Assembly: GCA_022457155.1 (NCBI GenBank)
Contig: JAJGOT010000309.1
Coordinates: 124,001-188,000 of the forward strand
Direction: 5' to 3'
From: Cladopsammia gracilis
Taxonomy: Eukaryota > Cnidaria > Anthozoa > Scleractinia > Dendrophylliidae
Length of the DNA stretch: 64,000 nucleotides
Of this stretch, positions 4,926-58,700 are shown one piece after another. Within the stretch, counting starts at the first letter, position 1. The number at the start of each line of letters is the position of its first letter. The position numbers were made by a program, and so were the translations under genes. Below the pieces are notes generated by a model. The model was not told the origin of the DNA. It worked only from the letters and a program-made list of their open reading frames with translations, and ran no database searches.

Positions 4926-4931
4926 AGTATC

Positions 4932-13630: not shown

Positions 13631-13644
13631 AACACTAATAAAAA

Positions 13645-21100: not shown

Positions 21101-23876
21101 TGAAAAGTAGGGTTGTACGACGACTCGTCTAGTGATCTGTCGGCTTCCTATAGGTTGTTGTCTGAATTTTGTAGTTATTACGTCTTACTAAGGTAGTTAG
21201 AAAAGGGAATTTTACCATTCTCTTTGTCCAACCTAACTGAAACTGTAGTTCAGTTTTAGTTCTTTAAGGCGGTTCACAAAAGGCGTAAAAAAAAGACTTC
21301 GTGGACAGCGGTAAATTTCATTTAGACTCATAGTCGTTGCATTTAATTCTCGCATAATTCATCAGAATTAAATTCGGCGATTGCAAGACAATAGGTTACT
21401 GATTGGCAATTTTACAAACAGAGAGCTTAGTAACAGACCTTCAGCTTGCGCATGGTCAGTTTTCCTTTGTTTCCATAGGGATATACCACGGCGAAGTATC
21501 GTTCAATGGCGATGGTAATCAGAATAAATACTGAAGCATACGCTCCAACCCACGCTACGTTTTCTCCTGTAAGCAGTGTACATAATACTCTTCCAGTCAC
21601 CCCCTCTGGGTGGCTAACATTGTGACTCAAGACAATCGGTGGTATCGAAAATGTTGAATACATGATGTCCGTTACTGCCAGGTTCACAAGTAGATAATTT
21701 ATGGGAATTCTACGGATAAATTAAACGGAAACGTATTATTTATGAAAAATTCGATTCATTTTATAACGTACTAGCATTATCTTTGTATTTGATTATTTCT
21801 CCTAATCACCACACGTTTTCGCGACAAATAAAGAATGGTGTCTGTAATTTGGAGACGACTCAAAAGCAATGAAGAGCCTCGAACTACAATAGAACGTAAT
21901 GCACACTTGAACATTTTTACTACATTTCTACAAAAGTCATCGTTGTGATTAATTTTTTTCTTCAGTTTTCACAATGAAAGTTGCTTGTAAGAAATTATTA
22001 CTACATGAGCGGGAGTGTTGTATCGGCCTTTACAATCACGAGGCGCAGCCGAGTGAATGTATAGTGCCGATACAACAGTAAACAACAACTTGTGAAATTC
22101 ACATTCACATGTAAATTAGAAACAACTCACTAGTGAGTTGTATCTGGATTACAGGGTAACCATGTAATTGGAATGGCTCATTTCTATTTGTTAGTACCCT
22201 TATGAATTATTAATGAATTTTACAAGTTTATTTGCTTGTAAAGAAAAATGAAAAGCATTATTGCTCTGTTCTCCGTTTTTCAGTATCAACTTGAAATGAA
22301 ATAAGTTTTATCCCACTCCATTCTGATACGTATTACTTTAATCCTTCCCTGCTGCCTCCATTGCTATTTCATCGCAAGGTTACACCCCAGTTCAGTGATA
22401 CCCTGTTTAAACAGTCATTGTCAAGGGAAACAACACGATAGGATCGAGAAACCAGGGCTCGTACTACCGAACGTCAGCCTTTGTCGTCAGATTGTTTGCA
22501 AATTTGTTTTTCCCTGCATTTTTTCGCGGTTTGCTGCTCAGGACAGGGATACTAATTAAGGGATACTCAGAAGACGCTATAGTGGAAAAAGAAGAGCTTT
22601 CAGGGATAAAATCTTGCTTCGAGGAACTCCATACGTTTTTAGCAATGTGCGGCAATAGTTCTTGTTCGGATTTCAGAACCGAAGATCCAGAGTTTTAAAG
22701 AATTTCCAAGCAACCGAGTGACTTAAATGTAAAAGTAATTACATTTTTCGATGGCAATTTATGTTGATATCAATTTGTGATTGACTTTTTCTTTGTGTTC
22801 CCGTTAATTTAGGAGAAAATGTTTACAAAACGTGCTCAAATTCAGTCTTGTTGATATTTTGAATTTCATCGAGGACAGCTCGGCCTCGATGCGCTATAAA
22901 GGTACGCGTTTTGCTTTTAATCATAAACTAATAGATATTTGAATATTAATCATAAACTAATAGATATTTGAATAAAATTTTTTAAAAGAAGAGTTTGTTG
23001 TCCTTTTTTATGTGTTTGTTCATTCATTACATAAGTGAAAAGCGATTTTATGTAAACAAAACGAGACTTAGGTTTTGCAGTTCTAACTTCGTTCACTCGC
23101 GTCGCCTTATGCAACGCTGTTTGAGTATTTTTTTTGCAACTTTGATTTCCAAATCAGTTTCTCGGGCAATTTTTGATACGGAACAGGTGTATTTCATTCG
23201 GAAATTAGTCATACCAGTTATTCTAGACCGAGAAAAAGTTGTTTTGTGAACTTTTGTACCTCATATCTCTACAGTCATGAATAGGTACAGGTACTAAGAA
23301 ACCACTTTATATAAGTCATACCTGACATATCTCTACAGTCATGAACAGGTACAGATACATTAGAAACTCACTCTACTTTATATATCTCATATCTCTACAG
23401 TCATGAATAGGTACAGCTACTCAGAAAAACTAACACTACTTTATGTACCTCATATCTCTACAGTCATGAATAGGTACAGCTACTTAGAAACACTAACACT
23501 TCTTTATATACCTCATATCTCAACAGAAATGAATAGGTACAGCTACTTAGAAACACTAACACTACTTTATGTACCTCATATCTCTACAGTCGTGAATAGG
23601 TACAGGTACTTAGAAACACTAACACTACTTTATATACCTCATATCTCAACAGAAATGAATAGGTACAGCTACTTAGAAACACTAACACTACTTTATGTAC
23701 CTCATATCTCTACAGTCGTGAATAGGTACAGCTGCTTAGAAACATTAACACTACTTTCTGTACCTCATATCTCGATTTTTCATCACGACAGCACAAACAA
23801 AACAGTTTCCCATAATGCACGCTATGATGAATATTGACGTCACTGTTGTTATGGCAATATCAGCTGACGTAGACAT
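18111..23876 (-). CDS. Class A GPCR, neuropeptide-receptor-like, copy A (4 exons)
   Basis: Exons on the minus strand: 23764-23876, 21439-21709, 20310-20555 and 18111-18443, joined in phases 2, 0 and 0 to 320 residues. All borders are GT/AG. The start ATG at 23876 is supported by an in-frame TGA just upstream, after an acceptor-like TTTCCATTTAG, so a 5' UTR exon is likely. TM1 has GN (C-I-M-G-N-C) and TM2 has NLAVTD. ECL1 has an N-x-S sequon and RVLC. TM3 ends AIERYFAV. TM4 is IIPVSWIVG, ECL2 has RNSC, TM5 ends YSRVIYTLWFKR, and TM7 is VNPYAY. The tail has one Cys before N-S-T. TM6 reads FVISWGTD: it keeps the toggle Trp but has Thr in place of the Pro of CWxP. It is a plasma-membrane receptor of unknown ligand. 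Intron 3 carries a 1.16-kb insertion. A shares LLTGEN with B. Confidence 0.82.
18733..19262 (+). mobile_element. Penelope-like remnant with ~95-bp inverted ends, in intron 3 of copy A
   Basis: The arms at 18735-18833 and 19163-19262 are inverted near-identical repeats (ACCGCGGT..., AAACATATTGAACTTA, GACGTTTCGTATGCTACTAC). Between them the plus strand reads HNIKWDYFDVLVSGKTDFHC followed by KIKETLFIQELKPAFN, with a stop at about 19006. This matches the last part of the GIY-YIG endonuclease of Penelope-like elements. Each arm holds GTATG-loop-CATAC-GAAAC-GTC, a hammerhead-like layout. Penelope elements can carry inverted terminal repeats, which fits. It lies antisense to the receptor. Confidence 0.65.
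19263..19728. mobile_element. Remnant of another repeat in intron 3 of copy A
   Basis: GGGTCCGTGACGTCATC.AAAATGG near 19335 recurs inverted at 50280-50370. The block ATATCTCGTTACTATAGCAAC...AAAAATATCGGAGAATAACCTTAA recurs at 60090-60220. Sequence homologous to the other introns resumes at about 19728. Confidence 0.55.
23256..23775. repeat. 63-bp minisatellite in intron 1 of copy A, abutting exon 1
   Basis: About eight units, beginning (plus strand) TACCTCATATCTCTACAGTC, then ATGAATAGGTACAGSTACTTAG. On the gene strand each unit contains ATATGAG|GTAC, the same bases as the exon-1 end and donor at 23764/23763. Because 63 is a multiple of 3, the plus strand stays open as a 21-residue repeat, which I take as an artefact. 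Confidence 0.9.
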
Positions 23877-24015
23877 AACTGAAACGTATCAGTGATATTC
23901 TCGTTATCTAAATGGAAAAGAAACAATTTAAAGAATAAATGTCATGAAATTGTGCGGGTCAGTAATTTTTTTATTATTTATTTCGATTTTTTTATATAAT
24001 GGAAACAATTAGCGC

Positions 24016-24345
24016 CCCCTTCCGAAACTTCAAGAATATTAAAGCTATGGCTATGAAACTTGGAGGTTTTATAGTGCATCCAAAACTGTCTAAGATAAAG
24101 TAGGTCACATGACGTCATATGACGTGGGAATTGCTTAATCATTCGGAATGGCCTCCATCTTGGATCCGCCATCTTGGAGCCGCCATCTTGGATCCGCCAT
24201 CTCAAAATTAATCAAAATCACAAGAAATATGTTAATACGATGTTAATTTGCAAATTTTACTGCAAGAAAGTTAAACATTCTCCGGTTAAACATTAATTTA
24301 TGCCGAAAATACGAAAATGTGTCCCAAAGATTCAAAATTTGAAGA
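24016..24345. mobile_element. Insertion upstream of copy A with CCATCTTGGATCCG repeats
   Basis: Sequence collinear with the other genes' upstream regions ends at about 24015. CGCCATCTTGGATCCGCCAT motifs at 24150-24200 recur at about 44588-44615 inside the piggyBac-like element of copy C, suggesting a related or shared repeat. Only a fragment is recognisable. Confidence 0.45.
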
Positions 24346-27300: not shown

Positions 27301-28257
27301 ACCATGAGTAATACGACCGAAGGGTTTTCTGGGAAGTAGAAAAAACTTCTTGTTTTCTCAGATAAAATCACAAAATGCAGTATGCACACAGTATGCACGA
27401 AATCATTCTCTGACTCTTTAAGGAAAGAATAAATTATAATGATTATAACACAGTATGCACAAAATCAACCTCTGAATCCTTTAGAAAGGAATAGATTAAA
27501 TACTTATAAATGAAATGTTAACAGGCTTTACATGTCCTGCTTCCAGAATTCCATCGAGTCATATCGCTTTTGGTGCATGTTTTTTACCAACGTTTCTTCA
27601 ATTACGTATATACCTTATCGGCAGAAACGTTGTAATAGAAAACACAAAATGCCAAATAGGAGTTTATTATCTTAATGATATTCGGTTTTTTTTTTCGCAT
27701 AATATGACTTTTCAACAGATATTTCTTCCAAACAAATTTCTATCAGATAAATTAATTCCTATTTTTTTTTTTTGTATTTTAATGACGTTTCTCCAATAGG
27801 TGTAAATCCACATATTCCAAATGTTTAATTTGAGGTTAGACATATTCAAGTATTATAAACATGCATTTTTTTAAACCTTTAATGGTGAAACAGAAAAAGG
27901 TTTAATTATCATATAAATATTACTGTATTGTTTTGCTTAACTTTTGTAGTCAACGTTTGATGTTTTATGGTCCACTTATTGGGGAGCTTTAGCAACCACG
28001 ACGGTAACGCCAAGGAAAACGTCATCGAAATTACTTTGTAATTGTTCCAATTTGTTTAATTTGTCTAATGTGACTGAATTGTCAAGGAACTGAATTCGTA
28101 GGGACGGCTTTCAAGTTCAAATAGAGAAGGGAAAATTAACCGTCGTCTGTTCACGTTCTCCACAAAACCTATCATTTAGAGTTCTCTTTGCAGAGAACGA
28201 CAAGGAAATGTACCAAAATGTACAACGCACGTACAGAGGTATTGTTTTCGCTCATTA
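24346..28257. other. Spacer between A and B, no gene
   Basis: It is paralogous to 10390-16020 and 35200-39060. It preserves the empty sites of the LINE (about 26727) and of the 687-bp element (about 27250). Conserved blocks such as GTCACAAATGAATATTGCTATCAC (about 26089) also occur at 12545 and 35370. No open frame has a recognisable domain. Confidence 0.55.
25657..25766. mobile_element. Short MITE with ~31-bp TIR
   Basis: AGGGGTCAATTTAATAAAAC at the left is mirrored by GTTTTATTAAATTGACCCT at the right, and the pairing continues through CTTTTACAAGTGTA. TAGAA lies outside both ends as a possible target duplication. Confidence 0.8.
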
Positions 28258-29180: not shown

Positions 29181-29286
29181 TTTGGAACTTTACAGCCATG
29201 CTCCGTCACGCGTGACCAGTATTTTTGAAAATTTGAATGGAGTTTTCAAGTTTACGCGTCGGTTTTGTAAATCCATTGGTCGTTTT

Positions 29287-29440: not shown

Positions 29441-30120
29441 ATTATAATTATAATTGCGGTCATTTTGTTGTTTTTGTGAAAAGACATTTTGCGGTTAAAT
29501 CACGGGCAATCCAAAGTGACAGGCCCATCTTGCCTGCTCGGGTAAACAATCAGAACACATGATTCACTTCATTCTGTTCTCTTGCGTAGCCAGCCATGTG
29601 ATAAACCCTCTCTCTCGTTTTACTTCAGTTACCTGTAGTGGAACGAAGTATGCATTCTACCGGGTGACTGTTCAAAGGCTGTACAACTACTCTTTGCAAG
29701 CACAAAGTTTAATCTCAACTTACATTTCTCTTCACGTCAGGTCCTTCGGTCTCCTAGCCTTCATAAAGTTACAACTTTCGTCTTCTAGTTTTCATCTCCT
29801 AATCTTTCTTCTAACTTGCTCTTGTTTACAAGTTACAACTTTCGTCTTCTAGTTTTCATCTTCTTAGCTTTCTTCTAACTTGCTCTAGTTTACAGTGCTC
29901 TTTTTATTTGCTTCTTTAGGGTTAATTGTGTGCTCTTGATACATAATTTGTGACTACTTTGATTGATTGTGATATATTGTTCGTTTGATAAGCATATCAT
30001 TACAGCAATTGCTTAATGTTCTTTGCAAAGCGTTTTTCACATGAAAAGAGTTATCAACAATAAATGAACATAATCATACTAAAGTTAGAACTACAAGTTA
30101 CAATTTGGCGAAGTAACATA
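29441..30120. other. Spacer with a ~60-bp tandem repeat, no gene
   Basis: GTTACAACTTTCGTCTTCTAG...CTTGCTCT units occur about twice here (29767-29895), three times at 39925-40110 and twice at 53667-53795. The flanks are paralogous to 39600-40320 and 53330-53800. Confidence 0.6.
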
Positions 30121-30465: not shown

Positions 30466-30499
30466 AGTTACTATACGTTTTCATAACTAGAAATTACAG

Positions 30500-30840: not shown

Positions 30841-33800
30841 TCACTCTGTGGAAGTTTGTCCTGCTTTGTTGCTCGACTGGGTGCCAATGTTGTTCACCAT
30901 CTCGATGTCTTGTGGTTCTCTCTCCAGTGCAACCCTTGTTGCAAAGGAAGTTGAATTGCAGCATACCATTCTCTTCATTTTCTCTCTGAATCGTTGGTTT
31001 ATCAGAGCGTATGCATAAGGATTGACAGCGAAGTTGAACGTGACTACCACATGGGCAATAGTGATGACATAAGGACCGAATATGATGCCAACTTCATTCT
31101 CTAAAATGTGGACTATTACGTCTATTTCATAAGATATTACAAAAATGGCACTGATGGTCACAACCATCAAGGTAACTCTCTTCCGCATCTTCAACACACC
31201 CTAGGTACATAAAAATGGTAATGTTAGTATTAAGGTTTTCTTGGTAAAATAACGCACTTTAATTACCACGCCGCTCGATTGCGTTATGAGTGATACGATG
31301 ATTTGAGTGTTTTAAGGTGTTTATATGTAACCAATAAATCTAACCTTACGGGCAACCCCCCCTGAATTTCAACTTAATCCAGGCCAAATTAATATTGGTC
31401 AAATGGCCCATCAAAGGCTCATACTAGGCGATCAAATGCCCCTACTTGCAGGAAACAGACTAACTTCTACACCATATTTTCTATTACAATACGTTTTTTT
31501 AGATTTTTCAGGGTAATTAGACAACCACATCACAACAACAACATTAACAACAGTGTTTATTTTACCCCGGACCCTACAATCATTATTTACAATTTTAAAT
31601 AGGAAAAAATAATAGTGGTACTGGCTACCCGGAAAAGTTAAAAATTCCGGTTAACAGGAAAGACATATTACTTAAATCAACAATGGTTTTGACAATACAT
31701 TTCGGTTGGTTTCTTCGTTATTTTTATATATATGATTGGTGGTTTGGTATAAAAAAGAATAGAATGTGGAATGCATCTACTCTGTTGTTTCAAAATAATT
31801 CATGCGTTAATAAAAAAAACCTGAAAATAAAGCCGCATCTCACCGCTCCCGACAGCTAGGGGCGTGCAGCCAAAAGTGAGGATTTTCATACCTGTTGTTG
31901 ATGGGTGAGTATAATATCATCATTACGCTTAAACCACAAGGTATATATGACCCTGGAGTATACCACAACCAGCAGAATACACATAAAGGAACTGAACATA
32001 TAATACACAGTCCAAACAGCCTGCTTCTCAGTGTTAACACAGGAGTTGCGTTTCTTCACGAAATCGATATCCAGGAATCCCGGTAATACGACAATTGGTC
32101 CGACTATCCAAGAAGCAGGAATGATCACCTGGAATTAAAATATGCAATCCCCTTGAAAGGGAGTCAAACATGCTGAAGCTAATAGGATACTGACGCTAAG
32201 ACCTCACTTAGTTGAAAAGCGGGTTGAAAAAGCCTGAATTGAACGCTGACTGATGTAAGAGTTTAAAGTGAGATACGTGTGACTCAGTGCGCATGTGTAT
32301 GTAAGTTAGAGAGAGTAAGAATGTTGAAAGTGCCAAAGTTTGCATAGTTGATTTGAACTAATATGTTTTACACATTTTCATAACCATTTCACAGTTTTCG
32401 GTTGCATTTATTTTTACTAAAACCGTTTAAAAGCTTCTCTGTTTTGGAGGCAGCGTGGCCGAGTGGTTAGGGCGCCGGACTTGAAATCCGAAGGTCCAGG
32501 GTTCAAGTCCCACTCTGACCACTTGATGGAGTTGTTTCACGGTAGACCCGAGTTCAACTCCTTGCCCACTCCTGTAACATAACCAATTGATCTGCCTCTT
32601 GCCAGTTGGGATTTTTAACATGTTATGTACAATTTCAATGCTCCGCCCCACTAGCACTTGTGTTATAAACACTGCCGAGGGTAAATAAGGGTTATTTGTT
32701 CGTTTGTTTTTGTTTTGGCTGCTTTTGTACTGTCCCTGTGTCAATTAATATTTAATAGTCCTTTCTTCTTGAAAAGTAGGGTTGTACGATGACTGGTCTA
32801 GTCATTTCTCGGTTTCCTGTAGATTGATTTCTATATTTCGTAGTCGTTGCGGCTTACTAAAGTAATCTAGGAAAGGAATTTTACCATTCTCTTTGTCAAC
32901 GTAATAAACTGTAGGACCGTTTTAGTTCTTTGAGGCGCTTCACAAAAAACGTCAAAAACGTCCTTGTGGACAGCGGTAAATTCCATTTAGACTTAAATCG
33001 TTGCATTAATTTAAAAAACGACCTCGCATAATTCGCCAAAAATTAAATTCGGCGATTGTTCGACATTAAATTTGGCCAGTTTTACCAATTGAAACTTCAA
33101 AAATATCAAAGAACAGTCTTATTGTATTTGTTGGAAGACAAGGTTACTAACTGGAAATTTTACAAACAAATATACCGGTCATATTAGAGAGCTTAGCTTA
33201 ATACCAAAGTAACAGACCTTCAACTTGCGCATGGTCAGTTTTCCTTTGTTTCCATAGGGATATGCCACGGCGAAGTATCGTTCAATGGCGATGGCAGCCA
33301 GAGTAAAGGCTGAAGCATCCGCTCCAATCCAAGATAAGTTTTCTCCTGTTAGCAGTGTACACAATACTCTCCCAGTCACTCCCTCTGGGTGGCTAACATT
33401 GTGGCTCAACAAAATCGGCGGTATCGTAAAAGTTGAGTACATGATATCCGCTACTGCCAGGTTCACAAGTAGATAATTTATGGGAATTCTGCGAATAGAT
33501 TTAACAGAAACCTATTTAATTTATTACTCGTGCCGGTACGACAACGAGTTAAGATTGCCCTCCGTTTTTCTCCTTGTTTCCCTCCGTGTTTTCGTATCTA
33601 CTTTTGTGCATTGCGTTAGATCTGGGTAGGAAAATACGCACACATGCACTGCGAGAAATTTTGAGTCCACGGTACATGGGATTCGGTGTAATCGGCGTCT
33701 TTTTCCAAGCAAAAGCGAAACAAATTTGGGTTTTATTGTTTGTTGCTGTTTACTCGTGACGGATACGGCAACGAGGTAAAGTTTTCCCTCCGTTTTTCAT

Positions 33801-34669
33801 TTTATTCTTTTTGTTTTCGTCTCTTATTTGTGCATCGCATTAGGTAAGGGTACGAGAAGATATATTACTTAAATCAACAATTGTTTGGACAATACATTTC
33901 GGTTGGTTTCTCCCTGATTTTAATTTATGTGATTGGTGGTTTGGTATACAAAGAGAATAGAATGCGGAATGGATTTACTCTGTTGTTTCAAAATAATTCA
34001 GGGCGGAAACTAAGGCCGTGCAGCCAAAACTGAGGGTTTTCATACCTGTTGTTGATGGGTGAGTACAATGTCATCATTGTGCTTAAACCACAAGGTATAT
34101 ATGACCCTTGAGTATATACCACAACCAGTAGGATACACGTAAACACTACTTTATGTACCTCATATCTCTACAGTCATGAATAGGTACAGGTACTTATACT
34201 AGAAACATTTATGCTACTGTACTTTATGTACCTCGTATCTCTACATTCATGAATAGGTACAGGTACCTAGAAATACTAACACTACTTTATGTACCTCATA
34301 TCTCTACAGTCATGAATAGGTACAGGTACGTAGAAACACTAACACTACTTTATATACATCATATCTCTACAGTCATGAATAGGTACAGGTACTTAGAAAC
34401 ACTGACACTACTTTATGTACCTCATATCTCTACAGTCATGAATAGGTACAGGTACTTATATTAGAAACATTAACAGTACTTTATGTACCTCATATCTCTA
34501 CAGTCATGAATAGGTACAGGTACTTATATTAGAAACATTAACAGTACTTTATGTACCTCATATCTCGATTTCTTATCACGACGGCACAAACAAAACAGTT
34601 TCCCACAATGCATGCAACAATGAGGATGGAATTTACTGTTGTTATGGCAATATCCGCTGACATAGACAT
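30841..34669 (-). CDS. Class A GPCR, neuropeptide-receptor-like, copy B (4 exons)
   Basis: Exons: 34557-34669, 33218-33488, 31892-32128 and 30841-31200, giving 326 residues. As in A, an in-frame TGA precedes the ATG. TM1 contains ACIVGNCFV and TM2 NLAVAD. ECL1 has the N-x-S sequon and LLTGEN. TM3 ends AIERYFAV, ECL2 has RNSC, TM5 has YSRVIYTLWFKR, and TM7 is VNPYAY with CCNSTSF after it. TM6 reads FVISYEID: Tyr replaces the toggle Trp and there is no Pro. Exon 3 is 79 codons rather than 82, losing three residues in ECL2/TM5. Intron 1 carries a pseudo-exon fragment and the minisatellite; intron 2 carries a SINE. The exon-4 acceptor is CTAG. Expression is not shown, but no inactivating change is seen. 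Confidence 0.8.
32446..32745 (+). mobile_element. tRNA-Ser(UGA)-derived SINE in intron 2 of copy B
   Basis: The head at 32449-32525 has an A box (TGGCCGAGTGGTT), an anticodon stem GGA/TCC enclosing CTTGAAA (anticodon TGA), and a B box GGTTCAAGTCC at 32500-32510. The variable arm is shorter than in a real tRNA-Ser and there is no 3' acceptor pairing, so it is a SINE rather than a tRNA gene. The body runs to about 32745. The other three genes lack it. Confidence 0.75.
33500..34045. other. Insertion in intron 1 of copy B with an internal duplication
   Basis: ACTCGTG(A)CGG.TACG(A)CAACGAG...CCTCCGTTTTTC occurs at about 33525 and 33762. From about 33860 to 34045 the sequence is a second copy of receptor intron 3 (compare 31660-31890). 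Confidence 0.55.
34046..34138 (-). pseudogene. Ectopic fragment of GPCR exon 3
   Basis: This is the 3' end of exon 3 (VVVYS...IYTLWFK...LTHQQQ and the GTATG donor), together with about 190 bp of adjoining intron 3. It lies inside intron 1 of B, next to the minisatellite. A 2-bp insertion (TATATAC for TATAC) shifts the frame. It comes from another copy or a lost gene. Confidence 0.75.
34139..34570. repeat. 63-bp minisatellite in intron 1 of copy B
   Basis: About six units of the same family as 23256-23775. Some units are lengthened by TTATAYTAGAAACATTA variants. It abuts the exon-1 donor at 34556/34557. Confidence 0.9.
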
Positions 34670-34828
34670 AGCTGAAGGGTATCAGTGATATTCTCGTTAT
34701 CTAAATGGAAAAGAAAAAATAAAAGAATTAATGTCTGGCATAAACTTCTGCGGCTCAGTAATAATTTTATCAAGTAATGGGATTCTTTCGTTAATGGAAA
34801 TAATAAGTTCCCGTAAACTGTTTTTTTA

Positions 34829-37382: not shown

Positions 37383-37937
37383 ATTGTCATCTCGTATGTG
37401 ACATACACCGGATTGAAAAAACGAGGTATTAACCATGAGTAATACGACCGAAAGGTTTCCTGGGAAGTAGAAAAACCTTGTTTTCTCAGATAAATTACAC
37501 ATAATTATAACACAGTATGCACCAAATCATCCTCAGAATCTTTTAGGAATGAATAGATTAAATACATATAATTATAACACAGTATGCACCAAATCATCCT
37601 CTGAATCTTTTAGTAAGGAATAGATTAAATACACATAATTATAGCACAGTATGCACCAAATCATCCTCTGAATCTTTTAGTAAGGAATAGATTAAATACA
37701 CATAAATTACACATAACTATAACACCGAGTATGTACAAAATCATTCTCTGAATCTTTTAGGAAGGAATAGATTATAATAATTATAACACAGTATGCACAA
37801 AATCAACCTCTTAATCTTTTAGGAATTAATAGATTAAACACTGATAAATGAAATGTTAACAGACCTTATTTGTCCAGCTTCAAGAATTCCATAGTGTCAT
37901 ATCGTTTGTGGTTCATGTTTTTTACCGACGTTTCTTC
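37383..37937. repeat. Spacer with ~60-bp tandem repeats
   Basis: ATAATTATAACACAGTATGC...AATCTTTTAG.AAGGAATAGATTAAATAC repeats about five times (37497-37850). Only one or two units are present at 15030-15100 and 27385-27500. Confidence 0.75.
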
Positions 37938-38105: not shown

Positions 38106-38114
38106 AGGTGTATA

Positions 38115-38452: not shown

Positions 38453-38456
38453 TATA

Positions 38457-40494
38457 CGTTATTGCAGAAACGTTGTAATAGAAAACACAAAATGCCAAAT
38501 AGGAATTAATTACCTTAATAATATTCGCAGAGATATTTTTTTATTTCTTAACAATTTCTCTTCTTACAACGTCTGTGAATATTTCTGTATCGATTTTGCT
38601 TAACTTTTGTAGTCAACGTTTGATGTTTTATGGTCCACTTATTGGTCAGCTTTAGCAACCACGACGGCAACGCCAAGGAAAGCGTCATCGAAATTACTTT
38701 GTAATTGTTCGACCAATTTGTTTAATTTGTCTAATGTGTCTGAATTGTCAAGGACCTGAATTCGTAGGAATTCGTAGGAAATGTACCAAAATGTGCAACG
38801 CATGTGCAGAGGCACTGTTTTCGCTCATTAAGGTGATGTTACACGGGACGATTCGTAATTAACGACAGGTATGTTACACGAAACAACTCATAAAATTCGT
38901 ATTTTTTTCGTTGCAAGGTTTTGAAACTGATTGAAAAAAACTTTTCAACGCAAAAATTGCGAAGAAAACCGTCCGCGCACCCATGGACTAAGTTATCGGA
39001 GTTAGATTTCCCATATAACGATTTTGATGGAGAACTCATGCAAGCAGTGGAAAACAATGAAACATTAAACGACTGTTGGTTGCAGGTGGTTTAAGGGGAA
39101 AATCTGGTGAGATTTTAGACAAATATTTCGAGTCTTTTCAAAGACATAACTCGAGAGTGATAACTGTAGTTTAAAGCTGATATGCACATAACAACTTAGA
39201 TATAATAATATCCTTTTAAGTTGAAATGATGATTTCAAGGTTGTTTCCTTTTCCAAATATCTTTTTTCCAAGAGCATAACTTTAGGTGGGATCATATACA
39301 GACAATTTCGTATGCACGTATCGCGTAACCTCGCCTTCATTGTTATAAAAGTGTAATGTAAATGGTTATTTGTATATATGTTTATAGATAATTGAAATTG
39401 AAACACAGAGGTACGGTTGAATAATAATTGCCATCGAAGTATAAATATCTCAAATTAAATGTAACTTGAGATTACCACAATACAATTAGATATATGGGTT
39501 GCTGACTAAACGTGAGGGCAAGATGGCTGGATTTTGGCCAAGTTGTTTTCTCTTCTTTTGCGTGAGCTAAATATTGTGCTCGCAGAAAAACTAACACTGA
39601 TGTCGTTAATTTTAGTTCGGTCATTTTGATGTTTTTGTGAAAAGACATTTTGCAGTTAAACACGGGCATTAATCCAGAGTGACAGACCCATCTTGCCTGC
39701 TCGGGTAGCCAATTAGAACAAAGGATTCACTTCATTCTGTTCTCTCAAGTAGCCAGTCATGTGATAAACCCTCCCACTCATTTTACTTCAGTTACCTGTA
39801 GTGGAACGAAGTATACGTTCTACCGAGGAACTACAACTTAACTGTACAACTTAACTCTTTGCAAGCAAAAGTTTAATCTCAACTTACATTTCTCTTAACT
39901 TCAGTCTTCTAACCTTCATGAAGTTACAACTTTCGTCTTCTAGTTTTCATCTCCTAAGCTTTCTTATAACTTGCTCTTGTTTACAAGTTACAACTTTCGT
40001 CTTCTAGTTTTCATCTTCTTAGCTTTCTTTTAACTTGCTCTAGTTTACAAGTTACAACTTTCGTCTTCTAGTTTTCATCTTCTTAGCTTTCTTCCAACTT
40101 GCTGTAGTTTACAGTGCTCTTTTTATTTGCTTCTTTAGGGTTAATTGTGTCTACATAATTTATGACTACTTTGATTGATTGTGATATATTGTTCGTTTGA
40201 TAAGCATATCATTACAGCAATTGCTAAATGTTCTTTGCAAAACTTTTCTCATATGAAAAGAGTTATCAATAATAAATGAACGTAATCATACTAAAGTTAG
40301 AACTACAAGTTACAACTTGGCGAATTAATATTTAAGTCACCATATCTTTTCATAACTAAAAATTACAGTTGATAGTTTGGTTTATAGTAAAAAAAAAGGC
40401 AAAACCCTCTATTCGATATTTTAGTTTGACTTAATTGCGGGAAACGAACTAAAGTTAAAGACAGCTAGGGAAGTTACCTAAAGATGCTTAAGCT
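38457..40494. other. Spacer between B and C, continued, no gene
   Basis: It is collinear with 27930-30120 but lacks the 28258-29180 insertion. The ~60-bp TTACAACTTTCGTCTTCTAG repeat has three units at 39925-40110. No coding signal is seen. Confidence 0.55.
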
Positions 40495-42427: not shown

Positions 42428-45400
42428 TCACCCTACGGAAGTATTTCCTGCTTTGTTGCTCGACTGGGTGTAAATGTTGTTTACCATCTCGATGTCTGTC
42501 ATGTCTTGTGGTTCTCTCGCCGGTACAACCCTTGTTGCAAAGGAAGTTGAACTGCAGCATATCATTCTCTTCATCTTCTTTCTAAATCGTTGGTTTATGA
42601 GGGCGTATGCATAAGGATTGGCTGCGGAGTTGAACATGATCATTGTATGGACAATGGGAATGACATAAGTATCGGGATTGATGGAGCCAACGTGATCTTC
42701 TAAGATGTGAAGTATTACGTCTGATCCATAAGATATCACAAAAATGGCACTGATGGTCACAACCATCAAGGTAACTCTCTTCCGCACCTTCAACACACCC
42801 TGTGTACATAAAAATTGTAATATTAAGGATTTGTTGGTAAAATGGCGCACATTAATCACCACGCCACTCGATTCCGTTATGAGAGATAACTTAAAGATGA
42901 TTTGAGTGTTTTAAGGTATCTACCCATACTTCCGGGAATTTCAACTTTTGAAATTTAGTTCGTTTAAATTCTCTTCATCCAGGCCAAATTAATATTTTCA
43001 AATGAACCACTTAAGGCTCATACTAGTCGATCAAATGGCCTACCTCCAGGGAACAGATAAACTTCTGCGCCACGTTTTTAATACTGTACGTCTTTTTTTG
43101 TCGTTTTCAGGGTAATTGGACAATCACATCACAACAACGACAACAATCTATATTTTAACCCAGACCCTACAATAAGTATTAACAATTTGGAATAGGAAAA
43201 TATATAATAGAGGTACTGGCTACCCGAATAATAAATAATAACCACCACTGCCGGCTGCTAGGGGCGTGCGGCCAAAACTGGGGATTTTCATACCTGTTGT
43301 TGATGGGTGAGTACAAAAGCATCATTACGCTTAAACCACAAGGTATATATGACCCTGGAGTATACCACAACCAGCAGGATACACCCATTGAAACCACAGA
43401 CATGATTCAGAATGTCACCAATTTGCCTCGTCCACTTCTCAGAATAAAGGCAGGAGTTGCTTTCCTTCACGAATTTCATATCCAGGAATGCCGGGAATTG
43501 GACAATCAGTCCGACTATCCAAGAAACAGGAATAATTATCTAGAAAAAAATGTGTAATTTTCATGAAAGAGAGTCACACATACTTGAAGCTAACAGAACG
43601 CTGAAAAAGCCTGAACGCCGCCTGATGTAAGAGTTTAAAATGCGATGCGGGTGTGTGTGTATGTCTTTGTGTGTATGCTAGAGAGATTACGACAGTTGAA
43701 AGCGCCACAGTTTGTTCAGTAGAGTTGTCCTAATAAACAAAATACTTTACAATTTGCCTAAGCTATTTCACAGTTTCGGGCTGTAGTTGATTTTACTACA
43801 AACGCGTTGTCAAGCTTAAAGTGTTATGTGTGTTTATGTAAGAGAGACTAAGTTGAAAGTTGAAAGCGCCCCAGACAGCAGGTTTCTCGTAATAAACAAA
43901 TATTTCACACCTGGCCTAAACTATTTCACAGTTTCGGTTTGTGGCTGTTTTAACTAAAAACGTTGTCTTATTTTCGGCTGCTCTGCTGTCAGGTTCGTCG
44001 CACACCAGTTGCGCAAAGTTGGTATAATCCTCTCTTATTGAAAAATAGGATTGTACGACGACTGGTCTAGTAATTTTTCGGTTTCCTGTAGATTGTTGTT
44101 TGTGTTTTGTAGTCGTTACGGCTTACTAAGATAGTCTAGTCTACTAAGATAGTCTACAGGAAGGAATTTTAGCATTCTCTTTGTCCAATTTAACTGAAAC
44201 TGTAGGTCAGTTTAAGTTCTTTAACCCTATTCAGACTGGGCTTTTTTAGGCAATCTATGACTGGGGGGGGGGGGCTCCTCGGACCCCCCTTCATATCTCT
44301 GGAACCAGTAAGGCTAGGACCATGAAATTTTCACACAATGTTAACCTCCATACAAGGAAACCTCACACCCAGTTTTGACCTGCCACACCCAATTATGACG
44401 TCACAACGACGTTATGTTTGTATTTCCGACGTTTCTTTGATATTTTTCCATCCAGATACTTAAAATATCAAATATAACTGTAAAATCATGTCTTTAATAT
44501 TAAAACATAATTAATACAAACAAGGACACACTTGTAAAGCAAGAAAAAGAAAAAAAAAGGCGATAAAACTATAATTTTGAAATTATTATCCGCCATCTTG
44601 GATCCGCCATCTTGGATTTCCTTTTTTTTCGTTTAAATTAAAATTTAAAAAATATCTAAAAGAGAAAAGGGTCAGAATGTATAAAACACGTATCAAACTA
44701 ATGTCTATTATCCAAACAATGAACTTAGAAGCGTTATTTAATAAATAGTACAACATTTTCTCTATAAGTAAAAGAGAGCAAAAATTTGCCTACCCCTCCC
44801 CCCAAAATATTTGATGTTAAAAATTTTTGATGTCTTTCAAGAACTAGTCACAAGAAAAAACTATTCTAACAAGAAAATGCACTATAAGTCAAAGAACAAG
44901 ATCTTAAAATAAAAAATTCACCATATTTTAATATTTTGAAAACCTATGTGTCAAAAACCGGTTGCCATGGCAACATGGTTAATCACACTGACATGTTATG
45001 CATACCAAAATGTCCCTAGATAAATTCTAGGGAAAGTCAGAAAATTTCAGCCTTATAGCTACTTCGGTGTAAGAGTTATCACAATTTTACTGGAGGGGGG
45101 GTTCGAAAAGCCCCCCCCCCCCCCCCCCCCAGTCTGAATAGGGTTAAGGCGGTTCACAAAAGGCGTCAAAAACGTCTTAGTTTGTGGACAGCGGTAAATT
45201 CCATTTAGACTCATAGTCGTTGCATTTAATTCCAAAAGAAACCTCGAATAATAGGTCAGAATTAAATTCGGCGATTGTACGACATTAAATTTGTCCACTT
45301 GTACCAATTAAAACTTCAAAAATATCAAAGAACAGTCTTAGTATATTTGTTGGAAGACAAGGTTACTAACTGGCAATTTTACAAACAAATCATTATACCG

Positions 45401-48400
45401 GTCGTATTATATTTTTTAGAGAGCTTAGTTTAATACCAAAGTAACAGACCTTCAGCTTGCGCATGGTCAGTTTTCCTTTGTTTCCATGGGGATATGCCAC
45501 AGCAAAGTATCGTTCAATGGCGATGACAATCAGAGTAACGACCGCAGTAGACGCTCCAACCCATGCTACGTTTCCTCTTGTTAGCAGTACACACAATACT
45601 TTTCCAGTCACCCCCTCTGGGTGGCTAACATTGTGGCTCAAAATAATCGGCGGTATCATAAATGTTGAGTAAATGATGTCCGCCACTGCCAGGTTCACAA
45701 GTAGATAATTTATGGGAATCCTGCAGATAAATTGAGCAGAAACGTATCATTTACGAAAAGTTCGATCCATTTTGTATAAATATATCTGGCACACTAGCGA
45801 AGCAAATTGATTATCTTTATATCTAAGTATTGCTCCTATAATCACCACACTTTGTATTTGCGACAATACAAGCTAGCCTGCAAACTGGAGAACAATGAAT
45901 GGCAGTCATTTTTTTCCATTCTACAAAAGTCGTCGTCGCTGATTAAATTCTACCTCGCATTTGCATACAATCGAAGGTCACGTGAGATAGGAAGCATATG
46001 ATAGCCGAGCTCAGTGCAAGTTTGCTGTCCCAGCAATTCAGTCGAGTAACTTCTAGCCGAACTGTCGTCGAGTTTCGTTACACAATATCACATCTCACGA
46101 TGTATCTTCACGGGAGGAGTAGACACTATGGACTCCGCGAATGAAACGGATTTGTTGGCAATAGACGAGGAGGACCTCTCTTCCGAAACATCCGGAGCAG
46201 AACGACACGGTGCTTCTCGTAACATGGCGGCCGACACGAACCTCTCGGTGTCGCCCACTGACGTTAAGCTCCTTTCGTCAGCGATCCTGAGCCTAACAAA
46301 GAGACTTGATAAACTCGAGGAAAACTCTCCGAAGGGGAAAGGAAAACGCAAGGCCAAACGACCGAGCGATGATCGAGAACATCAAAACAGCGTTCCCGCC
46401 AAAAAACATGTGAAAGACAGCTTGAGCTCCTCGAGCGAACAACCTAATTCCGTGAACCACCAAACCAGCGTTCCTGTCATACAGCCCTCCAGAGACAACG
46501 GACACTCCTCGAGTGACCGAAATGGCTCAGAAAATGAGGAAGACATTCAGGTTCTCATGGAAAAAGTTGCGGGCGAAGACAGCCATGGCGAAAGCGAGGA
46601 CGAAGATGAAATCCTGGCAGACATACAGAAAGTGTACGAGTCGGAAGACAACTGGCAAAATACATACAAAACCCACAACTTACCAAGCTCCATAATAAAA
46701 TGTTTCGCAGCCGCTTGCCGGATAAAGGGCTGAAAGAAAAGCTTGCGCGCCAAACCAGACCGGAAAACTGCGATGCCGTTAAACCTACAAGGGTAAATCC
46801 AGGCATCTGGCGCAAGCTTTGTGAGTCAATAAATAAGAGGGACCTATAGCTATTCAAAGTTCAGCAAGCCCTTATTAAGGTCATAATTCCTGTCGCCCGT
46901 TTGACTGATCTGTCCATGACAGAGAAAAAAGGTCTTCATCAAGAGGGCGTCAAACAGATAAAACAATTTGGGCTTGAAGCCTTATCGCTGATGACTCGTG
47001 TGATTTATGAGCTCAATATGCAACGTAAGCAATTAATGAAACAAAATATTGGCCAGGACTATGTTTCACTCTGTTCCCCTCATGTGCCTTTCACGGATTT
47101 GCTGTTTGGTGATGACCTTCAAAAGCAGTTGAAGGACATAGGGGACGTGAATAAAATTGGGGCCAAAGTCCAAACCTTCAAAGGATCCCAACGACAAGCC
47201 TCAGGGTATGGCTACAGCAGTAACTCCAAAGGATCTTTTCCTACAACAGAAACCAGCCAAAAAAACTCCAAGGACCAAACGTACAGACCCTGGCGACACA
47301 AGGAATCTCAGAAGATAAACTCCAACAACATGCGGACATCACAGTAGTCCACACAGCTATCACGGTAAATGCCATCTCAACTTTTGTTTCTGGAAACATA
47401 GCTAATTATTTGTCTAGTTGGAGATCCATTACCTCAGACCGAAGCATCCTTGAGATTGTCTCTGGCTATTGTATTGAATTTGACAGTATGCCATGCAAAT
47501 CTACTGTACCTCATATAGCGTTCTCGAAAGGTGATGAAAGTATTATTGCTGGAGAGTTATCTACACTTCTTGAGAAAGGAGTAATTCACAAAACGTTACA
47601 TTGGGACACAGAATACATTTCCACAATCTTTACTCGATCCAAGAAAGATGGGTCTCATAGACGCATCCTAAACCTAAAACATTTAAATGAGTATGTCACA
47701 TATCAACACATGGGAGTAGATGTTGCCGCAGTGAGCACTGGTCCAAAGGTCATCGGCGAATACGTTAACAGGTAAGTCTCGTTTAATTTTTCAATCTCCC
47801 TTCAGTTTTATCGTGAAAGTTTCTTGTAATTTTATTTGCTTGAAACGTTTTTCCAATTTTTTCCTGTCCTATGTTTTTCAATATCACCTTGAAATAAAAT
47901 ACGTTTTATCGCACCCCATTCTGATATGTATTACTTTAGCCGATTTAATCCTTCCCTGTTGCCTCCATTGCTATTACATCGCTAGGTTACCCCCCAGTTC
48001 AGGGATACCATGTTTAAACACATTGTCTAGGGAAACAACACGATATCATCGAGAGACCAGGGCTCGAACTACCGAATATCAGCCGCACCTCCACAATCCT
48101 GAGAAGGTACAGCTGCATAGAAATACTAACACTACTTCATGTACGGCATATCCCTACAGTCATGAATAAGTAAAGCTACTTAGAAACACTAAACACTACT
48201 TTATGTACCTCATATCCCTACAGTCATGAAAAGGTACAGGTACTTAGAAACACTAACACTACTTTATATACCTCATATCTCTACAGTCATGAATAGGTAC
48301 AGGTACCCAGAAACACTAACACTGCTTTACACACCTCATATCTCTACAGTCATGAATAAGTACAGTTACTTAGAAACACTAACACTACTTTATATCTCTA

Positions 48401-48694
48401 CATTTATGAAAAGGTACAGCTACTTAGAAACACTACAATACTTTATATACCTCATATCTCTACAGTCATGAATAGGTACAGCTACTTAGAAACACTAACA
48501 CTACTTTATATGCCCCATATCTCTACAGTCATGGATATTTACAGGTACTTATACTAGAAACATCAACAGTATTTTATGTACCTCATGTCTCGATTTCTCA
48601 TCACGACAGCACAAACAAAACAGTTTCCCACAATGCATGCAATGATCAGGATGGAATTTACTGTTGTTATGGCAATATCCGCTGACATGGACAT
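42428..48694 (-). CDS. Class A GPCR, neuropeptide-receptor-like, copy C (4 exons)
   Basis: Exons: 48582-48694, 45450-45720, 43294-43539 and 42428-42799, giving 333 residues. Here the frame upstream of the ATG is open back to the TTTCCATTTAG acceptor (RSEEYHEYPSV), so an earlier start in an upstream exon cannot be excluded for this copy. TM1 GNCFV, TM2 NLAVAD, LLTRGN in ECL1/TM3, AIERYFAV, IIIPVSWIVG, SNSC in ECL2, YSRVIYTLWFKR, and ANPYAY in TM7. TM6 is FVISYGSD: Tyr at the toggle and no Pro. The tail has ICCSSTSF and QDMTDIEM, shared in part with D. Intron 1 (2861 bp) holds a DIRS fragment and the minisatellite; intron 2 (1910 bp) holds a piggyBac-like element. A LINE sits about 150 bp upstream of the start. 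The coding sequence is undamaged. Confidence 0.8.
44225..45143. mobile_element. piggyBac-like non-autonomous element, TTAA duplication
   Basis: TTAA flanks both ends (44221-44224, 45144-45147). The TIR is CCCTATTCAGACTGGG, exactly inverted at the right end. The empty site TTCTTTAAGGCGGTTC is present in copy A (about 21262), and a near match is in D (about 57311). G runs (about 44266-44276) and a C run of about 22 (45109-45130) lie just inside the ends. No transposase frame is present. It lies in intron 2 of copy C. Confidence 0.88.
45950..47798 (+). mobile_element. DIRS-like retrotransposon fragment in intron 1 of copy C
   Basis: ORF1-like region: 46128-46733 encodes an acidic/Ser-rich 201-residue N-terminus (MDSANETDLLAIDEEDLSSE...). 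A frameshift near 46700 moves the continuation (RLPDKGLKEKLARQTRPENC) into another frame, and a stop lies at 46848. 46901-47347 continues the gag-like C-terminus. The RT start follows at 47380-47720: SSWRSITSD, IEFDSMPCKS, LLEKGVIHK, RSKKDGSHRRILNLKHLNEY. This is the DIRS-type RT N-terminus. The rest of RT, RNase H and the tyrosine recombinase are absent. The last 80 bp (to about 47798) are unassigned and contain AACAG|GTAAGT. Copy D shows the uninterrupted site at about 58115. It lies antisense to the receptor. Confidence 0.78.
48090..48590. repeat. 63-bp minisatellite in intron 1 of copy C
   Basis: About eight units with more variation than in A. One is shortened near 48395. It abuts the exon-1 donor at 48581/48582. 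The gene-strand ATATGAG|GTA motif recurs through the array. Confidence 0.9.
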
Positions 48695-48841
48695 AACTGA
48701 AGGGTACTCGTGATATTCTTCTGATCTAAATGGAAAAGAAACAGTTAAAAGGATTAACCTCTGGTATGAAATTGTGGGGGTCTGTAATATTTTTATCATT
48801 TATTGGCCATGGATTCTTTTATTAATGGAAATAATAAGCTC

Positions 48842-52900: not shown

Positions 52901-53811
52901 CCAAGAGAGGGACGGTTCCTTATTCTGAAAAAGAAACAAGGCCGAAGCACCTCTCCGTGCCCCTTCCCATTTCGTATAACATTATTATATAAACTTCAGT
53001 GAAATACTTATGATTTCTTCCACAACGAAAAAATCATATGTTGACGCATGTGAAGATTTCAATCTCCCCACTCCACCCGTTTTTCCCCGATTTTTGTAAA
53101 AGCATTAATTTTCAGCACATGCCATCCTCAGTAGCTGTTCGTTTATCCCTGAGACTTAAACAACAAGTTTACATTTTGATAGCGAGTTTTTATACCATGC
53201 TGATGATCTTATTAGAAACTTTTTTAACAAGTTAGCCAATTCAATTCACGTGCACGCGTCCTCGCGAAGTTGGGCACGATTAAATGTAATCTTGTCGCTT
53301 CGTGTTTCTTCTTCTTTTGCGTGAGCTAAATAGTGTGCTCGCAGAAAAACTGTGATGTTCATTTTAGTGCGGTCATTTTGTTGTTTTTGTGAAAAGACAT
53401 TTTGCGGTTAAATCACGGGCAATCAAAGTGACAGGCCCATCTTGCCTGCTCGGGTAGCCAATCAGAACACAGGATTCACTTCATTCTGCTCTCTTGCGTA
53501 GCCAGCCATGTGATAAACCCTCCCACTCGTTTTACTTCAGTTACCTGTAGTGGAACGAAGTATGCATTCTACCGGGTGACTATTCAAAGGCTGTACAACT
53601 ACTCTTTCAAGCACAAAGTTTAATCTCAACTTACATTTCTCTTTACTACAGTCTTCTAGCCTTCATGAAGTTACAACTTTCGTCTTCTAGTTTTCATCTC
53701 CTTAGTTTTCTTCTAACTCGCTCTTGTTTACAAGTTACAACTTTCGTCTTCTAGTTTTCATCTCCTTAGCTTTCTTCTAACTTGCTCTTGTTTTCAGCCT
53801 TGCCCTTATAT
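49921..53811. other. Upstream region of C and spacer to D, no gene
   Basis: 49921-51560 is closely paralogous to 58925-60010 upstream of D (TAAGTTTGGAATAAAAAGTA, AAAGCGGCATTC.CTTATTGAAAGAAGAAGC, GACATCAAGGAGAATGTCAGCA). It is the best place to look for a shared promoter. 50280-50370 is an inverted copy of a repeat also seen near 19335. 52085-53240 matches 61087-62160. Nothing here has coding support. Confidence 0.5.
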
Positions 53812-54265
53812 TAAGGCGTATAATTTATGTTCTACTGATTTTCTTTTTGAAAAACGCTCTGCGGAACTGATTAATTACTTAGTAAAACGAGGATACAGCC
53901 GCTGTTTCCTAAAAAGTGGAATTCGACACGTCCATTCCATCCCTCGCTGTAATCTTCTTACCGAGCCAAAACAACAAAAGAAAGCCTCCGACCGAACACC
54001 TTTCGTAATCACCTTCAATCCAGCTATTTGTAATCCCTCTTCTGCTGTACGAAAACACCTTAACATTCTTCAATCGTCCACCCGCTGCAAAGAAATTTTT
54101 CCTTCACCACCTGTCGTGGCTTATATATAGGAGAAGTGCAAGCCTTCGTGACCTCCTGGTTCATACAAAATTATTAGGAAACCAACCAGCGAGAGAGATC
54201 AGATAGTGCCTCCAGCAGGAGCTTACAGATGCAACCACCCATGCTGTTTGACCTGTCAGTTTATT
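53812..54265 (+). pseudogene. Penelope-like element fragment
   Basis: The plus-strand frame reads KAYNLCSTDFLFEKRSAEL, INYLVKRGYSR, RTPFVITFNPAICNPSS, VRKHLNILQSS and FPSPPVVAYI, then a TAG. A +1 shift resumes FRRSASLRDLLVHTKL and GAYRCNHPCCLTCQ. This is the region between the RT and the GIY-YIG nuclease of Penelope-like elements. No ATG opens it and the nuclease is missing, so it is a dead fragment. It is not the same piece as 12597-13286. Confidence 0.72.
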
Positions 54266-55742: not shown

Positions 55743-58700
55743 TCACCCTACGGAAGTATTTCCTGCTTTGTTGCTCGACTGGGTGCAAACGATGTCTGTC
55801 ATGTCTTGTGGTTCACTCGCTGGTGCAACCCTAGTTGCAAAGGAAGTTGAATTGCAGCATATCATTTTCTTCATCTTCTCTCTAAATCGTTGGTTTATCA
55901 GGGCGTATGCATAAGGATTGACAGAGGAGTTGAACATGATCATGGTATGGGCAATGGGAATGACATAAGTATCGAGTTTGATGGAGCCAACGTGTTCTTC
56001 TAAGATGTGAAGTATTACGTCTGTTCCATAAGATATCACAAAAATGGCACTGATGGTCACAACCATCAAGGTAACTCTCTTCCGCACCTTCAACACACCC
56101 TGTGTGAATTAAAATGGTACATGATATTGTAATTAAGGATTTGTTGGTAAAATTACGCACATTAATCAACATGCCACTCGATTCCGTTATGAGTGATAAC
56201 TTAAAGATGATTTGAGTGTTTTAAGGTATTTTAATCTACCGATCAAATCTAACCCCAAGAGCAACCTCCCGGATTTCAACTTTTGAAATTTAGTTCGTTC
56301 AAATTCTCTTCATCCAGGCCAAATTAATATTGTTCAAATGACCCACTCAAGATTCTTACTAGGTGATCAAATGCCCCTACCTCCAGGCGGAACAGATTAA
56401 CTTATACACCACATTTTTAATACAATAGGCCTTTTAGATTTTTCAGGGTAATTTAAAAATCACATCACAACAACAAGAATCTATATTTTACCCCAGACAC
56501 TACAATAAGTATTTACAATTTTGAATATGAAAAATATATAATAGAGGTACTGGCTACCTGAATAATAAATAATATAACCACCGCTCCCGGCAGCTAGGGT
56601 ATGGCCAAAACTGAGGATTTTCTTACCTGTTGTTGATGGGTGAGTACAGTATCAACATTACGCTTAAACCACAAGGTATATATGACCCTGGAGTATACCA
56701 CAACCAGCAGTGTAGACGAAAAGAAACCGTAGACATAATACACAATCCAAACAACCTGTGTCGTCCACTTCTCAGAAAACTTGCAGGAGTTGCGTTTCTT
56801 CACGAAATATTTATCCAGGAATGCCGGTAATCGGACAATCAGTCCGACTATCCAAGAAACAGGAATAATTACCTAGAAAAAATATGTAATTTTTATAAAA
56901 GAGAGTCAAACATACTTGAAGCTAACAGAACGCTGACGCTAAAATCTCACTTTGGTTAGTTGAAAGGCGTGTTGAAAAAGCGTGAACGTTGACTGATGTA
57001 AGAGTTTAAAGTGTGATGCGGGTGTGCGTGTGTGTATGTCTCTGTGTGTATCCTAGAGAGAGTAAGCCAGTTGCAAGCGCCACAGTTTGTACAGTAGAGT
57101 TGTCCTAATAAACAAAATATTTGACAACTTGCCTAAGCTATTTCCCAGTTTCGGGTTGTACGACGACTGGTCTAGTAATCTGCCGGTTTTCTGTAGATTG
57201 TTGTCTGTATTTTGTTGTCGTTACGACTTACTAAGATAGTCTAGAGGAATGAATTTTGCGACAGCCATTATCTTTGTCCAACCTAACTGAAACTGCAGGT
57301 CAGTTTAAGTTCTTTTAGGCGGTCCACAAAAGCTGTCAAAAACGTCTTCGTGGACAGCGGTAAATTTCAGTTAGACTCATAGTCGTTGCATTTAATTAAA
57401 AAAGAAACCTCGTATAATTGGTCAGAATTAAATTCGGCGATTGTACGACATTAAATTTGTCCACTTGTACCAATTAAAACTTCAAAAATATAAAAGAACA
57501 CTCTTAGTATATTTGTTGGAAGACAAGGTTACTAACTGGCAATTTTACAAACAAATCATTATACTGGTCATATTATATATTTTAGAGAGCTTAGTTTAAT
57601 ACCAAAGCAACAGACCTTCAGCTTGCGCATGGTCAGTTTTCCTTTGTTTCCATAGGGATATGCCACAGCAAAGTAACGTTCAATGGCGATGACAATCAGA
57701 GAAGCAACTGCAGTATACGCTCCAACCCACGCTACGTTTCCTCTTGTTAGCAGTACACACAATACTCTTCCAGTCACCCCCTCTGGGTGGCTAACATTGT
57801 GGCTCAAAATAATCGGTGGTATCATAAATGTTGAGTAAATAATGTCCGCTACTGCCAGGTTCACAAGTAGATAATTTATGGGAATTCTGCAGATAAATTG
57901 AACATAAACGCATTATTTATGAAAAATTCTATCCATTTTGTATAAATGTGTCTAGCACACTACGAAAGCAAAATGATTATCTTTATATCTAATTATTGCT
58001 GCTATAAGCACCACACGTTGTATTTGCGACAATACAAGCTCGCCTGCAAACAGCTGGAGACCACTGAATGGCAGTCATTTTTTTAGTACATTCTGCAAAA
58101 GTCGTCGTCGCTGATTAAATTTTCCTTCAGTTTTCATCGCGAAAGTTGCTTGTAAGTTTATTTGCTTGAAATGTTTTTCCAAGTTTTTCCTGTTCTATGT
58201 TTTTACAATATCACCTTGAAATAATGTGATACGTATTACTTTAGCCGATTAAATCCTTCCCTGCTGCCTCCATTGCTATTACATCGCAAGGTTACACCGC
58301 AGTTCAGGGATACCCTGTTTATGCACGTTGTCTAGGGAAACAGCAAGATAGGATCGAGAGACGAGGGCTCGAACTAGTAGGTACAGCTACTTAGTAATAC
58401 TAACACTGCTTTATATACCTCATCTCTACAGTCATGAACAGGTACAACTGCTTAGAAACACTAACACTACTGTCTGTACCACATATCTCTACAGTCACGA
58501 ATAGGTATAGGTATCTAGAAACACTAGGCACTACTTTATGTACCGTCATGAAACTTTATGTACGGACCCCATATCTCTAACGTCATAAATAGGTACAGGC
58601 ACTTACACTAGAAAAACAGTTTACTTTATGTACCTCATATCTCGATTTCTCATCACGACAGCACAAACAAAACAGTTACCCACAATGCATGCAATGATTA

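Follow-up and report, generated by a model that had tools for sequence, protein, structure and literature searches.

Receptor genes and the repeats at their TM1 donors

The window (the whole 64,000-nucleotide stretch of DNA analyzed, part of contig C951 in the 878-Mb Cladopsammia gracilis assembly that we searched) carries four tandem class A GPCR genes on its minus strand (Table 1). With splice sites read from the DNA, as all exon borders here were, the open frame is intact in each of the four genes and runs to 320–333 aa. Assignment to the rhodopsin-like class comes from a domain scan of gene 4, which covered the whole Pfam 7tm_1 profile (1–260 of 260, E 9.7e-33), and genes 1–3 have their exon structure in common with gene 4. 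The closest database proteins to gene 4 are QRFP/NPFF-like receptors of stony corals, the best two at 57% and 60% identity, and rhodopsin-like GPCRs with large tandem expansions are reported in corals (PMC10236652). The exon that the earlier note called exon 1 stands as the first coding (TM1) exon, but it is perhaps not the first exon of the gene, given a 3'-splice-site-like motif, TTTCTTTTCCATTTAG, located about 130–151 nt upstream of the donor. This motif was found with at most six mismatches in all 46 loci tested, and its AG was intact in 41 of them. At the locus L010, which has 15 units, the corresponding motif reads TTTAT and not TTTAG, so that this gene may be impaired or take another site.

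Table 1. Features of the window, in window coordinates. A slash or a semicolon separates several places of one feature.
Feature	Position	Strand	Remarks
GPCR gene 1	18111..23907	-	four coding exons, open frame 320 aa
Gene 1 first coding (TM1) exon	23764..23907	-	predicted from 3'-splice-site-like motif and donor
Gene 1 array	23250..23773	-	about 8.3 units of 63 nt; exon part 23764-23773; real donor GT 23762-23763
Antisense open frame in gene 1 array	23364..23837	+	157 aa, 21-aa repeats
GPCR gene 2	30841..34700	-	open frame 326 aa
Gene 2 first coding (TM1) exon	34557..34700	-	predicted
Gene 2 array	34132..34566	-	about 6.4 units; exon end 34557; first two units identical, 68 nt each
Copy of gene 2 exon 3 end	34010..34116		92% copy, source 31856-31962; in intron 1, just past the gene 2 array
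GPCR gene 3	42428..48725	-	open frame 333 aa
Gene 3 first coding (TM1) exon	48582..48725	-	predicted
Gene 3 array	48089..48591	-	about 8 units; exon end 48582; bounded by the post-unit flank of single-copy paralogs
GPCR gene 4	55743..58763	-	open frame 328 aa; Pfam 7tm_1
Gene 4 first coding (TM1) exon	58634..58763	-	predicted
Gene 4 array	58378..58643	-	3-4 units; two blocks, 58566-58643 and 58378-58549; exon end 58634
Second minisatellite	29766..29894; 39921..40113; 53668..53793		64-bp unit, 2-3 copies
Third, related minisatellite	14973..15105; 27386..27509; 37488..37838		62-67-bp unit with AACACAGTATGCA
DEAD-box helicase piece	4908..5354	-	E 1.4e-12
zf-RVT match	13533..14036	+	under its curated cut-off
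tRNA match	32449..32520	+	33.9 bits

An array of 63-nt units runs through the TM1 donor of every window gene. TRF reported 61–63-bp units at 23250–23773 (8.3 copies), 34142–34566 (6.4), 48105–48551 (7.2), and 58378–58544 (2.7), a period that places the four arrays among minisatellites (tandem units of roughly 10–100 bp). By wraparound alignment of the unit, the exon-side ends of the arrays lie at 23773, 34566, 48591, and 58643, and genes 1–4 hold 8, 6, 8, and 3 nearly full units, respectively, plus partial ones. Both methods bear out the earlier note in having a 63-nt array meet exon 1 in all four genes, and its counts of 8, 6, 8, and 4 units are right to about one unit. The donor lies inside each array, and the start is found within the exon: in four of four window genes the array begins 10 nt before the donor (GAGATATGAG/GTACAT, with the slash marking the junction), and the first copy consists of GAGATATGAG of the exon and about 53 nt of the intron.

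In the 14 arrayed genes described below, the exon tail agrees with the consensus unit at positions -10 to -1 in 14 of 14 genes, the count being 13 of 14 at -7 and at -6. Farther into the exon, agreement was observed in all 14 genes at -12, in none at -11, in four at -16, and in none elsewhere out to -20. As a control for chance, we examined the 3562 gene-strand GT sites of the window that lie outside the arrays, and none agreed with the unit tail at as many as 11 of 12 positions. The units therefore share the sequence of the exon end and donor far more closely than chance would give, as had been claimed.

The window holds other repeated or open sequences near these genes. The copied end of gene 2 exon 3 includes LTHQQQ and the exon 3 donor. 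The second minisatellite lies downstream of the last exon in genes 2, 3, and 4, apparently within the duplicated gene module, while the third is found between GPCR genes. The antisense frame of the gene 1 array was considered as a coding sequence and rejected as a by-product; the 157-aa frame gave no Pfam match, and the open plus strand of the arrays is explained by the consensus unit, which has one antisense frame free of stops.

Distribution of the arrays across the gene family

The earlier note described a feature of four genes. It is present in all four but is wider, a feature of the gene family, with arrays in at least 14 genes of the C. gracilis genome. A search of the genome with the unit gave at least 162 matches, and a search with exon 1 plus the junction gave at least 40 places, all 40 listed being read. 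These 40 comprise 12 arrayed genes (11 on C951 and one on C1207) and 28 single-copy paralogs (on C247, C587, C984, and C308); together with L020 and L021 on C1298, which came from the unit search, 14 arrayed genes have exon 1 in view. Copy number across the paralogs is one in the 28 genes and about 2–31 in the 14.

Nearly full units number 31 at L009, 15 at L010, 7 at L011, 13 at L012, 2 at L013, 3 at L015, 4 at L016, 8 at L017, 5 at L020, and 6 at L021. The array starts at exon position -10 in 13 of the 14 arrayed genes, and at L011 its recognizable part begins at +52. The first unit is degenerate in one arrayed gene. Three more loci, L014 (5 units), L018 (11 units), and L019 (4 units), have exon 2 of the family, with exon 1 not in the stretch read; from their order and orientation, L014 and L018 probably represent the distal halves of the arrays at L015 and L017.

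The wide variation in unit number among paralogs, the interruption of several arrays by unrelated sequence, and the presence of large single-copy clusters as well could be read in favor of some other role in the intron or the genome, with an incidental match to the donor; the arrays might, for instance, be hot spots of recombination or conversion that help the cluster expand. However, the 28 single-copy paralogs on their four contigs multiplied without an array, and we consider such a role very unlikely.

Five dispersed loci, L022–L026, carry a frame-broken TM1 exon with one or two units. They are near-identical, and after the units they have the same CAGGGGCGGAT-type sequence, which by eye looks like the end of a mobile element.

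Searching with the antisense frame of gene 1 also retrieved three predicted proteins, P0121–P0123 (E 7.9e-26, 1.1e-22, and 4.2e-18, among the best 7992 candidates scored), at 69–74% identity over 39–53% of the query. By eye, each shows two to three antisense units and then a stretch like the antisense TM1 exon, so that the exon-array join exists on other contigs too, with short arrays. With the same query, P0124 (E 5.2e-5) has units without the antisense TM1 exon. When P0121 was used as query, P0121–P0123 and one weak match were returned. Judging from identity only, P0121–P0123 probably come from a different species.

Probable origin from the exon-intron junction and later growth

The single-copy paralogs indicate what the site may have looked like before an array was present. 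In all 28, the exon ends in GAGATATGAG, the donor is the same, and one unit-like stretch stands at the start of the intron. This stretch reaches GGATTGTG after 72–81 nt, with GAGG usually next, and no array was found within the 0.7–1.6 kb scanned in these genes. The TM1-exon donor and the start of exon 2 are the same in arrayed and single-copy genes, where both were found. In gene 3, L011, L012, and L016 the array passes directly into the flank that follows the unit in single-copy genes. Later parts of this flank stand at the array end in gene 4, L014, and L018, the flank appears only farther downstream in gene 1, L010, and L013, and it was not found in the scanned part of gene 2, L009, L015, L017, L020, and L021. 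Where the flank is in place, the array takes up the site of one unit. The exon end and donor of the single-copy genes and the flank closing 4 of 14 arrays thus fit a founder tandem duplication that included the last 10 nt of the exon. RDMR was observed at the exon end in 8 of the 12 coral homologs read, which argues that this exon end belongs to the receptor. Furthermore, in 9 of 11 genes the first unit is nearer to the single-copy form than the internal units are on average, the opposite being true of gene 4 and L017; L011, L020, and L021, which have no full first unit, were left out of this test.

Trees were built from the genes with exon 2 in the stretch read, which excludes L009, L010, L015, and others. 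In the DNA tree, which has no firm root, the arrayed genes of C951 and C1207 stand apart (98/96) and the two arrayed genes of C1298 fall among the single-copy genes. In the protein tree, which includes five outgroup coral protein pieces, the ingroup is mostly unresolved and the arrayed genes form no well-supported group; its bootstrap had not converged, and this tree has no firm root either. Neither tree thus proves the direction, which we infer to have been from single copy to array.

A pre-existing minisatellite or mobile element could instead have inserted at the donor, in which case the likeness to the exon end would be insertion microhomology, and five dispersed two-unit copies on other contigs might be taken to point that way. 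However, L022–L026 have their own frame-broken TM1 exon by the units, as gene copies would, the single-copy paralogs carry the unit once and in place, and the exon match is 10 of 10 nt in register. Among the matches listed, no unit array clearly without a nearby TM1 exon could be demonstrated. Insertion is in our judgment highly improbable. An origin of the arrays from the junction is strongly favored by the sequence, and the family is apparently a clear case of an exon-intron boundary seeding a minisatellite.

We propose a short tandem duplication that crossed from the TM1 exon into intron 1, taking in the final 10 nt of the former and about 53 nt of the latter. A GAG present both at exon position -10 and some 75 nt farther down, in the intron, may have mediated it. 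Duplication from the exonic GAG to the one that follows GGATTGTG would account for the array joint, CTGTA/GAGATATGAG. This seed would then have become a minisatellite, enlarged mainly by internal copying and spread by duplication within the gene family.

Agreement among internal units is 0.912 when they share an array (12 genes) and 0.894 when they come from different genes (91 pairs), while first units agree at 0.876 with their own internal units (11 genes) and at 0.867 with one another (55 pairs). Alternating two-unit patterns were observed in gene 1 and L009, and units 1 and 2 are identical only in gene 2 of the 11 genes tested. Since internal units are more alike than the first unit is to them, and given the alternation and the identical first pair in gene 2 only, most growth looks internal. 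Growth by repeated duplication of the junction, as proposed in the earlier note, would then describe the founder event and perhaps one later event, but not most of the enlargement.

Look-alike donors and their possible use

Of the 138 internal junctions, GT is kept in 121 and AG/GT in 109. We calculated pairing energies with the U1 5' end; the 121 GT-keeping junctions have a mean of -5.67 kcal/mol, compared with -5.7 for the usual real donor and with values between -4.9 and -11.0 for the remaining donors of the window genes. Pairing of this kind hardly tells the first donor from the decoys, which differ from it mainly in position, and the serial donor look-alikes that had been predicted to derive from the junction are indeed present. 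Ten of the 14 arrayed genes and 27 of the 28 single-copy genes share GAGGTACAT as their real donor. At L017/L018 on C1207, the real donor is GAG/GTAAAG and most units have CAG/GTATAT, and both pair with U1 better than usual (-6.9 for the first donor, with decoy means of -6.65 and -7.39), which could hint at one case of compensation.

An in-frame stop begins 2–17 nt into the intron at all 47 exon-1 loci, including the five broken and the single-copy genes. This stop precedes every decoy, and use of a decoy would therefore truncate the receptor to a stub of about 40 aa. The donor columns of the unit are conserved at 0.92, 0.96, 0.96, and 0.92, against a unit mean of 0.944 and a median of 0.965. 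Among 62 dinucleotides with a median intact fraction of 0.912, GT stands at 0.876 and ranks 16th lowest; AGGT ranks 20th lowest of 63 four-base windows. These ranks indicate neither clear preservation nor clear purging of the decoy donors.

One explanation for this arrangement is a copy-number rheostat, in which decoys compete for U1 and divert transcripts to unproductive, stop-containing mRNAs, so that a longer array means less receptor and the unproductive share could be under splicing-factor control. The AG/GT junctions with pairing like that of the real donor, the stop directly after the first donor in every gene, and the stronger-than-usual donor and decoys of L017/L018 are all consistent with it, as is the report that SRSF1 and hnRNP A1 can shift the choice among competing donors (PMC5585400). 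In regulated unproductive splicing, use of the alternative sites would likewise bring in a premature stop, as predicted from the sequence at 47 of 47 loci. However, the stops occur in single-copy genes too and are thus not an adaptation to the array, the alternative sites are not conserved beyond their neighbors, and the sharing of one first donor by most arrayed and nearly all single-copy genes argues against general compensation. We regard the rheostat as unlikely. The stricter proposal that the array at the TM1 donor sets receptor dose heritably through its length, with each unit adding an equal donor behind a stop and output falling with copies, appears more doubtful. The suggestion in the earlier note that array length tunes splicing of the TM1 exon accordingly finds no support, with stops within 17 nt at every locus and decoys showing no extra conservation.

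The AG/GT units could also be recursive or dual-specific sites, with the intron removed unit by unit, GAG/GTACAT regenerated each time, and the mRNA unchanged. That 109 of 138 junctions are AG/GT would allow this, and AGGT arrays in human UBC are reported to act as dual-specific sites (PMC10809524), but the 15 nt ending in the unit AG contain 5 pyrimidines, compared with 9–12 at five acceptors of these genes, and we find recursive removal scarcely credible. RNA hairpins hiding the donors were considered as well and rejected. Within the unit, TGTACC is able to pair with GGTACA, and in 20 of 21 genes, all except L017, the 9 nt of the real donor are less accessible than their intron is on average. 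Shuffling, however, gave values as low as the observed one or lower in 6 to 64 of 100 introns for each of 14 genes, and z was -0.81 and -0.34 for two unit variants and -0.88 for one single-copy piece.

We favor, at a probability of roughly two in three, a minisatellite derived from the junction, with the first donor used and any decoy use amounting to low-level waste. Every unit has a copy of the weak real donor (GAG/GTACAT), and the first donor alone adjoins the open exon, the others standing behind the in-frame stop; for this reason the receptor is most likely made with the first donor. Transcripts spliced at a decoy, if there are any, would probably be cleared by nonsense-mediated decay. 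Most likely, the minisatellite is neutral or mildly costly. The decoys may not be wholly passive: their U1 pairing equals that of the real donor, and in human 6.9% of AGGTs are reported to be supported as 5' splice sites by more than 10 reads (PMC10809524), which makes low-level use of some decoys plausible. Nothing in the sequence itself points to such use.

Older work on duplicated 5' splice sites exists, and Zhuo et al. in 2007 are said to have described introns arising from tandem arrays. Our literature search, outside which most subscription journals lay, recognized no donor-spanning minisatellite in corals, and we do not claim absence. Human paralogs are already known to have tandem repeats at exon-intron boundaries, and the variable repeats of segmentally duplicated human genes are the closest described kind (PMC2812944): these are boundary-crossing minisatellites whose copy number varies among recent paralogs and which are thought to alter splicing. 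They average 30 bp by four units, with transcripts reported to support new introns or retained repeats, whereas the coral arrays have a 63-nt unit in up to about 31 copies, lie on the donor side, and are known here from DNA. The dual-specific array of polyubiquitin UBC likewise has one AGGT per tandem unit, but its units are coding monomers (PMC10809524), whereas all three sense frames of the coral consensus unit contain stops and few pyrimidines precede its AG. A review describes how boundary-crossing tandem duplication copies splice signals, with AGGT central to the standard model (PMC3443670); for the coral genes we propose no new intron, but that an existing intron was lengthened as the duplication went on to form an extended array. 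Tandem alternative 5' splice sites are also serial competing donors, one of which may give a premature stop, but the set reported as enriched has extensions of a few nucleotides (PMC2423196), as opposed to coral donors every 63 nt or so, up to about 31. The intronic minisatellite CeRep25B of C. elegans is enriched near alternatively spliced regions; its abstract (PMC4039745) does not state an origin in an exon-intron junction, unlike that proposed for the coral arrays. The long, donor-side, family-wide form is a variant that we did not meet in the literature searched.

If dose control by array length were true, a whole coral receptor cluster would be graded by the length of a minisatellite. 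The paralogs in any case form a natural series, in which an almost constant exon is followed by an almost constant donor in anything from one copy to about 31. With this series, one tissue sample would be enough to test how the cell settles on the first 5' splice site when many equal ones follow.
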